Shown: in pieces, positions 35,317 to 36,570 of the stretch
Numbering within the stretch: position 1 is the stretch's first letter
Layout of the letters: each line of letters opens with the position of its first letter
Source of the DNA: Acidobacteriota bacterium
GTDB lineage: Bacteria; Acidobacteriota; Vicinamibacteria; Vicinamibacterales; Fen-181
Assembly (NCBI GenBank): GCA_003170135.1
Contig: PMZR01000009.1
Span: 62,001 to 126,000 of the forward strand
Length of the DNA stretch: 64,000 nt
Reading direction: 5' to 3'
Notes under the pieces: model-generated
Databases searched by the model: none
Seen by the model: only the letters and a program-made list of their open reading frames with translations
What the model was told of the DNA's origin: nothing
Position numbers and translations under genes: made by a program

Positions 35317-36570
35317 ATGGCCAAATATCTCGACGACATTCCGCTGTCCGGCATCACCCGCATCCGTGAATTGATGTACTCGGTCCAGGATCCGTTCCGC
35401 CTGGACCAGGGCGACGTGAGCTTCGAGGCGCCCGACAGCGTGAAGCAGGCGATCACGCGCGCGGTCGCCGATGGGCACACGCACTATCTGCAGACGAACG
35501 GCCTGCCCAAGGTGCGCGAGTTGCTCGCGCGGAAGCTGCGCCACCAGAACCGGCTGCCGGTTGACAGTCCCGACGAAGTGCTCGTCACCAACGGCGGCAT
35601 CCACGGTCTGTACCTGCTGTGCCAGGCGCTGCTCGAGCCCGGCGACGAGGTGCTGCTGCCGGATCCCGAGTGGCCGCCGGCGCAGAGCAACATCCTGACC
35701 GCCCACGGCGTCCCCGTCCGCTACCCGCTCTACGAGACGCGCGCCTGGCGGTTCGACGCGGCCGAGCTGGCGGCCTCGGTCACGCCGCGCACGCGCGCCA
35801 TCTACGTCAACTCGCCCAACAACCCGACCGGCGGCGTGTTGACACGCGCCGATCTCGAACAGGTCGCCTCGCTGGCGCGCGAGCGCAACCTCTGGGTGAT
35901 CTCGGACGAAGCCTACGAGGATGTGCTGTTCGGCGGCGCCGAGCACGTGAGCATCGGCTCGCTGGAGAAGATGTATCCGCGAACGGTGTCGCTCTTCACC
36001 TTCAGCAAGTCCTACGCGATGACGGGCCTGCGCTTCGGCTATCTCGCCGTCAAGGACGCGGGGCTTCGCGAGCGGCTCACGAAACTGCTCTTCCTGACGA
36101 CGAGCAACGTGTCGTCCATCGTGCAGTTCGGCGCAATCGGCGCGCTACTGGGATCGCAGGGCGTGGTCGAGCAGTTCCGCGTCGAGCTGGAAGCGCGCAG
36201 GGATCTGTTCTACGAGGGGATCCGGACGGCCGCCAGCGGCGTGCTCGGCGGGCAGCCTCCCCTCGGCGCGTTCTACGCGTTCCTGAAGATCGACGCGGGA
36301 TGGGACGCACCGTCCGAAGTCCGAAGTCCGAAGTCCGAAGTCGAACGTCCGACGTCCGAAACCCAACGTCCGTCCGAGGGACTCGGCCGGCAATCGCGAT
36401 CGTGGGCGATGACGGAGCGTCTCATCCAGGAAGGCCGCGTCGGCTGCATCCCCGGCGTCGATTTCGGAGCGTGCGGCGAGGGCTACGTCCGGTTCTGTTT
36501 CGCGCGGGAGCGGGCGGAACTTCTCGGCGCGCTGGAAGCGATGAGAAGAGTGTTGGTCCTTGGTCCCTAG
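35317..36570 (+). CDS. Class I/II aminotransferase with in-frame heptamer insertion
   Basis: A 417-residue fold-type I PLP enzyme. VTNGGIHGLYLLCQALLEPG, the cofactor-binding YVNSPNNPTGGVL and SDEAYEDVLF, and the PLP lysine in TFSKSYAMTGLRFG are visible. The C-terminal RVGCIPGVDFGACGEGYVRFCFA keeps the Arg that binds the substrate carboxylate. Between residues about 333 and 353 the chain is translated from nine heptamers (pattern SEVRSPKSEVERPTSE); homologues lack such a segment as far as I know. The TAG stop lies in the second unit of another array. Substrate unknown. Confidence 0.9.
   Translation: MAKYLDDIPLSGITRIRELMYSVQDPFRLDQGDVSFEAPDSVKQAITRAVADGHTHYLQTNGLPKVRELLARKLRHQNRLPVDSPDEVLVTNGGIHGLYLLCQALLEPGDEVLLPDPEWPPAQSNILTAHGVPVRYPLYETRAWRFDAAELAASVTPRTRAIYVNSPNNPTGGVLTRADLEQVASLARERNLWVISDEAYEDVLFGGAEHVSIGSLEKMYPRTVSLFTFSKSYAMTGLRFGYLAVKDAGLRERLTKLLFLTTSNVSSIVQFGAIGALLGSQGVVEQFRVELEARRDLFYEGIRTAASGVLGGQPPLGAFYAFLKIDAGWDAPSEVRSPKSEVERPTSETQRPSEGLGRQSRSWAMTERLIQEGRVGCIPGVDFGACGEGYVRFCFARERAELLGALEAMRRVLVLGP
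36312..36374. repeat. Heptamer array inside a coding sequence
   Basis: Nine units (GTCCGAA four times, GTCGAAC, GTCCGAC, GTCCGAA, ACCCAAC, GTCCGTC), 63 nt or 21 codons, within the aminotransferase gene. The length is a multiple of three, so the reading frame is preserved. It sits in a region expected to be a surface loop. Confidence 0.85.

Follow-up and report, generated by a model that had tools for sequence, protein, structure and literature searches.

A GTCCGAA-type heptanucleotide array lies in frame within an aminotransferase gene of an Acidobacteriota bacterium

Phase-variable contingency loci carry simple sequence repeats within genes, and their reading frame changes with each repeat unit. 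Long heptanucleotide repeats and cyanobacterial STRR-type arrays include GGGAATC in Xanthomonas, GGGGAYT in Nostoc and TAACTGA in Beggiatoaceae, and lie mainly between genes (PMC4692102, PMC4679880). Rickettsia palindromic elements are palindromic, about 150 bp long and encode a conserved peptide, and they stand in frame in many genes (summarised in PMC10969869). A literature search for heptamers in Acidobacteria found nothing relevant.

Here we describe an in-frame heptamer array in the window, by which we mean the whole 64,000-nucleotide stretch analysed (assembly GCA_003170135.1, contig PMZR01000009.1, positions 62,001 to 126,000), and the family of arrays to which it belongs. The arrays of this genome resemble heptanucleotide repeats in their 7-nt unit, in occurring many times per genome, mostly between genes and seldom between divergent ones, and in their patchy presence among relatives; unlike those repeats, many lie deep in conserved enzyme genes, where one stop-free family dominates, and each genome has its own repeated word although the period of 7 persists across the order. 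They also resemble Rickettsia palindromic elements in that a repeat family stands in frame in many unrelated protein genes whose products are apparently functional. In contrast to those elements, they are tandem heptamers of variable length with no palindrome inside the gene: the aminotransferase array folded no better as RNA than its shuffles (z = +1.2), for which reason a hairpin role for it was rejected, and 0 of 24 deep in-gene arrays had an inverted partner within 300 bp. With contingency-locus repeats they share an in-gene tandem repeat whose period is not divisible by 3, but here the array is stop-free in all frames, its units are degenerate, the genes are housekeeping genes and the arrays are mostly in frame. 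The present case is thus the repeat type of heptanucleotide repeats combined with the coding behaviour of Rickettsia palindromic elements, minus the palindrome.

Table 1. Host gene and heptamer arrays, in positions of the window.
Feature	Coordinates	Strand	Evidence
Class I/II (fold type I) PLP-dependent aminotransferase gene, 417 aa, array in frame	35317..36570	+	PF00155 match, orthologues, AlphaFold2, PDB match
GTCCGAA-type in-gene heptamer array	36312..36374	+	Codes residues 332/333-353; absent from orthologues
GTCCGGA-type array upstream of start codon	35254..35300	+	Tandem Repeats Finder 6.7 copies, 92% matches
Mixed heptamer array and inverted copy, long hairpin	36553..36661 (end approximate)		RNA fold -100.4 kcal/mol, z = -13.9

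In the host enzyme, Pfam Aminotran_1_2 (PF00155) covered residues 27-407 (E = 5.5e-58, 197 bits), and the AlphaFold2 model matched PDB entry 1gd9 (TM 0.86/0.92), which together with 1dju, likewise a Pyrococcus aminotransferase, is its closest solved relative. Along with the fold type I domain, the PLP lysine (K231) and the carboxylate-binding arginine (R392) were found, both in invariant alignment columns, and every invariant column was preserved on either side of the array. The enzyme downstream of the array, including invariant residues such as Arg392, is intact. In the AlphaFold2 model, built from a 30-sequence alignment, mean pLDDT was 90.2 and most of the enzyme exceeded 90; the sole segment below 50 was residues 335-357. 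The inserted residues probably make no contribution to the enzyme and form a loop that is tolerated and disordered.

A heptamer array in frame within this gene, as the first-pass annotation had read it, was borne out: lag-7 agreement within the gene peaked at 41 of 54 positions, whereas none of 300 first-order Markov shuffles exceeded 30, and the reading frame stays open across the array, which encodes PSEVRSPKSEVERPTSETQRPS. The same reading had given nine GTCCGAA-type units. By direct parse the array does split into nine 7-mers (four GTCCGAA, then GTCGAAC, GTCCGAC, GTCCGAA, ACCCAAC and GTCCGTC), but only five of these are exact, one has a single mismatch and three are degenerate, and Tandem Repeats Finder reported 7.0 copies (36312-36360, 9% indels); nine is one possible parse. 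Arrays immediately before the start and over the stop of the gene had also been claimed, and both are real. The upstream one stops 16 bp short of the ATG. The downstream one, of TTGGTCC/TGGTGCG type, supplies the last codons of the aminotransferase, spans its TAG stop codon (36568-36570) and runs on as its own inverted copy, forming a near-perfect hairpin that separates two convergent genes, the other being a short-chain dehydrogenase-like ORF that ends at 36664.

We compared the gene with 29 orthologues from other genomes of the same order and with a set from a public genome collection, mostly acidobacterial assemblies. Orthologues matched both flanks of the array (GAFYAFLKID before it, SRSWAMTERLI after it) without the array segment, so that homologues of the same order lack residues about 333-353 and align on both sides, as had been predicted. 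The outcome that would have spoken for an old protein feature, distant homologues carrying the same segment in unrelated DNA, was looked for among the orthologues and did not occur. The loop spans 42 aa in the window gene and 20-25 aa in most orthologues; in genus g3 of the same family it reaches 31-39 aa (39 in L011 and L015), in sequence unrelated in both protein and DNA and devoid of the heptamer period. The earlier figure of 21 added codons holds against L026 (+21 residues), but the net insert is +22 against L027 and as little as +3 against L011 and L015; with a host loop whose length varies naturally, the exact number of added codons cannot be fixed. Judged against orthologues 53-66% identical, some of them same-family proteins with loops nearly as long, the insertion appears lineage-specific.

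To place the array in its genomic context we surveyed 2.55 Mb (44%) of the source assembly, with genes called by our own codon-usage predictions rather than standard annotation. Contigs were selected where earlier matches had revealed a minimum length, a choice that leans towards those with GTCCG arrays. The assembly (5.8 Mb, 141 contigs; contamination estimate 5.56) is fragmented, so unit counts may be collapsed. Seven-nucleotide periodicity was in clear excess (267 lag-7 segments, versus at most 18 for any lag between 2 and 28, multiples of 7 excluded). The 420 period-7 arrays comprised 319 between genes, 58 at gene edges and 43 wholly within predicted genes, and 27 of these 43 were deep, that is, at least 60 bp from both gene ends. 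Array density was 0.24 per kb between divergent genes versus 0.84-0.89 elsewhere. GTCCGRA is a word almost confined to this genome: GTCCGRAGTCCGRA had 268 matches here versus 0-13 in 59 relatives, and an exact GTCCGRA 21-mer occurred 104 times versus 0-6 times in the remaining 192 genomes of its class. Period-7 arrays built on other words were seen across the order (L011, L024, L031, L036, L264, L274, L280, L289), among them TCCCTAA, AGAAGCA, AAGTTAA, AAGTACG, TGATGCC and AGTGGCT; the period was kept and the word had turned over.

Arrays deep inside genes were dominated by one family, with GTCCGnn making up 22 of the 27 deep arrays versus 76 of the 319 intergenic ones (Fisher p = 3e-9). Both orientations were represented (9 and 13), yielding VRSPKSE-like or GLRTSDF-like peptides accordingly, and the same heptapeptide recurs in unrelated proteins of this genome. 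Among the hosts are PurM, HemW, serine dehydratase, IspDF, a ClpA-like ATPase, Ada-AlkA and a carboxyltransferase. When aligned with relatives, PurM carries a clean insert of 17-18 aa and serine dehydratase one of 22 aa, and the HemW array lies in a loop that is variable among relatives; in PDB alignments, PurM and the ClpA-like protein have additional residues where the array lies. For IspDF, Ada-AlkA, the carboxyltransferase and the ClpA-like protein, Pfam domains stand on either side of the array. We do not claim a clean insert for IspDF, where the array is in a linker but the linkers of relatives vary.

Selection for frame, which the first-pass annotation had proposed from this one gene, found backing genome-wide for the GTCCG family. 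Frame was decided from the stretches adjoining each array, independently of the gene calls, although those calls had served to train the codon table. Of the 21 GTCCG arrays that coding DNA flanks on either side, 17 were in frame versus one third expected (p = 1e-5), and the result held at every threshold used (p from 0.003 to 1e-5); for the other array families the count was 15 of 33 (p = 0.1). What failed was the proposal that only arrays of 3, 6 or 9 units keep the frame: units are imperfect, lengths fell at a multiple of 21 in just 2 of 27 in-gene arrays with no clustering, and the PurM and serine dehydratase inserts have the lengths given above. For the frame to be retained, it is the net insert length alone that has to be a multiple of 3.

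The word itself is permissive to translation. A GTCCGAA array contains no stop in any of the six frames and, since 7 has no factor in common with 3, each strand encodes a single cyclic heptapeptide whichever of its three frames is read, VRSPKSE on one strand and FGLRTSD on the other; for both reasons the array is translatable in whichever frame it is entered, and an out-of-frame reading of the aminotransferase array would still reach a stop downstream. All six frames were open in 83% of deep in-gene arrays of at least 28 bp, versus 23% of shuffles. Stop-freedom was considered as the whole reason for GTCCG in genes and rejected. Between genes GTGCGnn is about as common as GTCCGnn (74 versus 76 arrays) and about as often stop-free (54/74 versus 60/76), yet it accounts for 0 of the 27 deep arrays (Fisher p = 2e-6 versus GTCCGnn), so stop-freedom alone is insufficient to explain the in-gene pattern. 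In-gene arrays apparently leave proteins unbroken because the word is stop-free in every frame and the survivors sit in tolerant loops and linkers.

We consider it likely that a lineage-specific burst of the GTCCGRA heptamer family entered coding DNA and that selection kept the in-frame copies in loops and linkers. Under this reading an array of the GTCCGRA family, which has multiplied in this one lineage, would have joined the aminotransferase gene in a loop whose length varied beforehand, through insertion or copying of an already existing array; its length may later have changed by slippage, and purifying selection would have purged insertions that shifted the frame or struck the folded core. 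Alternatively, a chance GTCCGAA-like seed in the loop could have expanded in place by replication slippage, with nothing moving in. Slippage is the proposed source of heptanucleotide repeats, which in most surveyed genomes outnumber every other class of long repeat according to earlier work cited in PMC4679880, and the arrays do contain imperfect units such as slippage leaves. Independent origins, however, would yield many different words, whereas GTCCGRA, scarcely seen in other genomes of the class, recurs here at about two dozen unrelated positions within genes and at many sites between them; serine dehydratase, moreover, gained 66 nt at an array of only 31 nt. Because many genes share the same word, copy-insertion is favoured over local growth, and we regard expansion in place as unlikely.

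That the array acts as a phase-variation switch, turning the enzyme on and off by frame change, is suggested by its period, as 7 nt shifts the frame with each unit in the manner of phase-variable repeats. We find this very improbable given that the array is imperfect, with three degenerate units, that in-frame states predominate, and that the hosts are housekeeping enzymes (PurM, HemW, IspDF, ClpA-like) and not surface genes. Scarcely credible, too, is that the segment is an old feature genuine to an enzyme subfamily, its DNA repetition being secondary: the g3 loops nearly match it in length (39 aa versus 42), but they are unrelated to it and without the heptamer period, most orthologues have far shorter loops, and the heptapeptide turns up in unrelated proteins of this genome. 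This reading was already disfavoured, as no orthologue encoding the same peptide in unrelated DNA was found. As for the wider family, one possibility, which we put forward tentatively, is that heptamer arrays are dispersing non-coding elements that some cellular process copies to new sites, coding DNA included, with the period of 7 maintained order-wide, the word turning over and GTCCGRA being the one active here.

The GTCCGRA arrays provide a natural experiment, and one that can be counted, in the uptake of foreign low-complexity sequence by proteins, with one short word, many genes and both orientations, and with a clear filter visible for frame and for position in loops and linkers. Stop-freedom in all six frames explains how certain repeat words are able to get into genes in the first place. 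The data further suggest that arrays can lengthen loops and linkers of housekeeping enzymes within a single lineage.

The carboxyltransferase presents a separate case. At L212:6613-8640 (+) its C/D and A/B parts are joined in a single frame of 675 aa, and a heptamer array lies where they meet. The two parts are separate frames in relatives of the same family and one frame in G007, which belongs to another family. The array may mark a gene-fusing event, but the single-frame match in G007 keeps us from claiming one.

Repeats of a different kind were also seen at two of the loops discussed here. In L040, an acidobacterial assembly, a palindromic REP-like repeat stands in frame in the same aminotransferase loop (from about 1440), and the HemW loop of L298 holds an in-frame 33-nt repeat with a palindromic core, likewise REP-like. 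The two repeats appear to have been taken up independently by tolerant loops, and the aminotransferase and HemW loops may thus take up repeats repeatedly.
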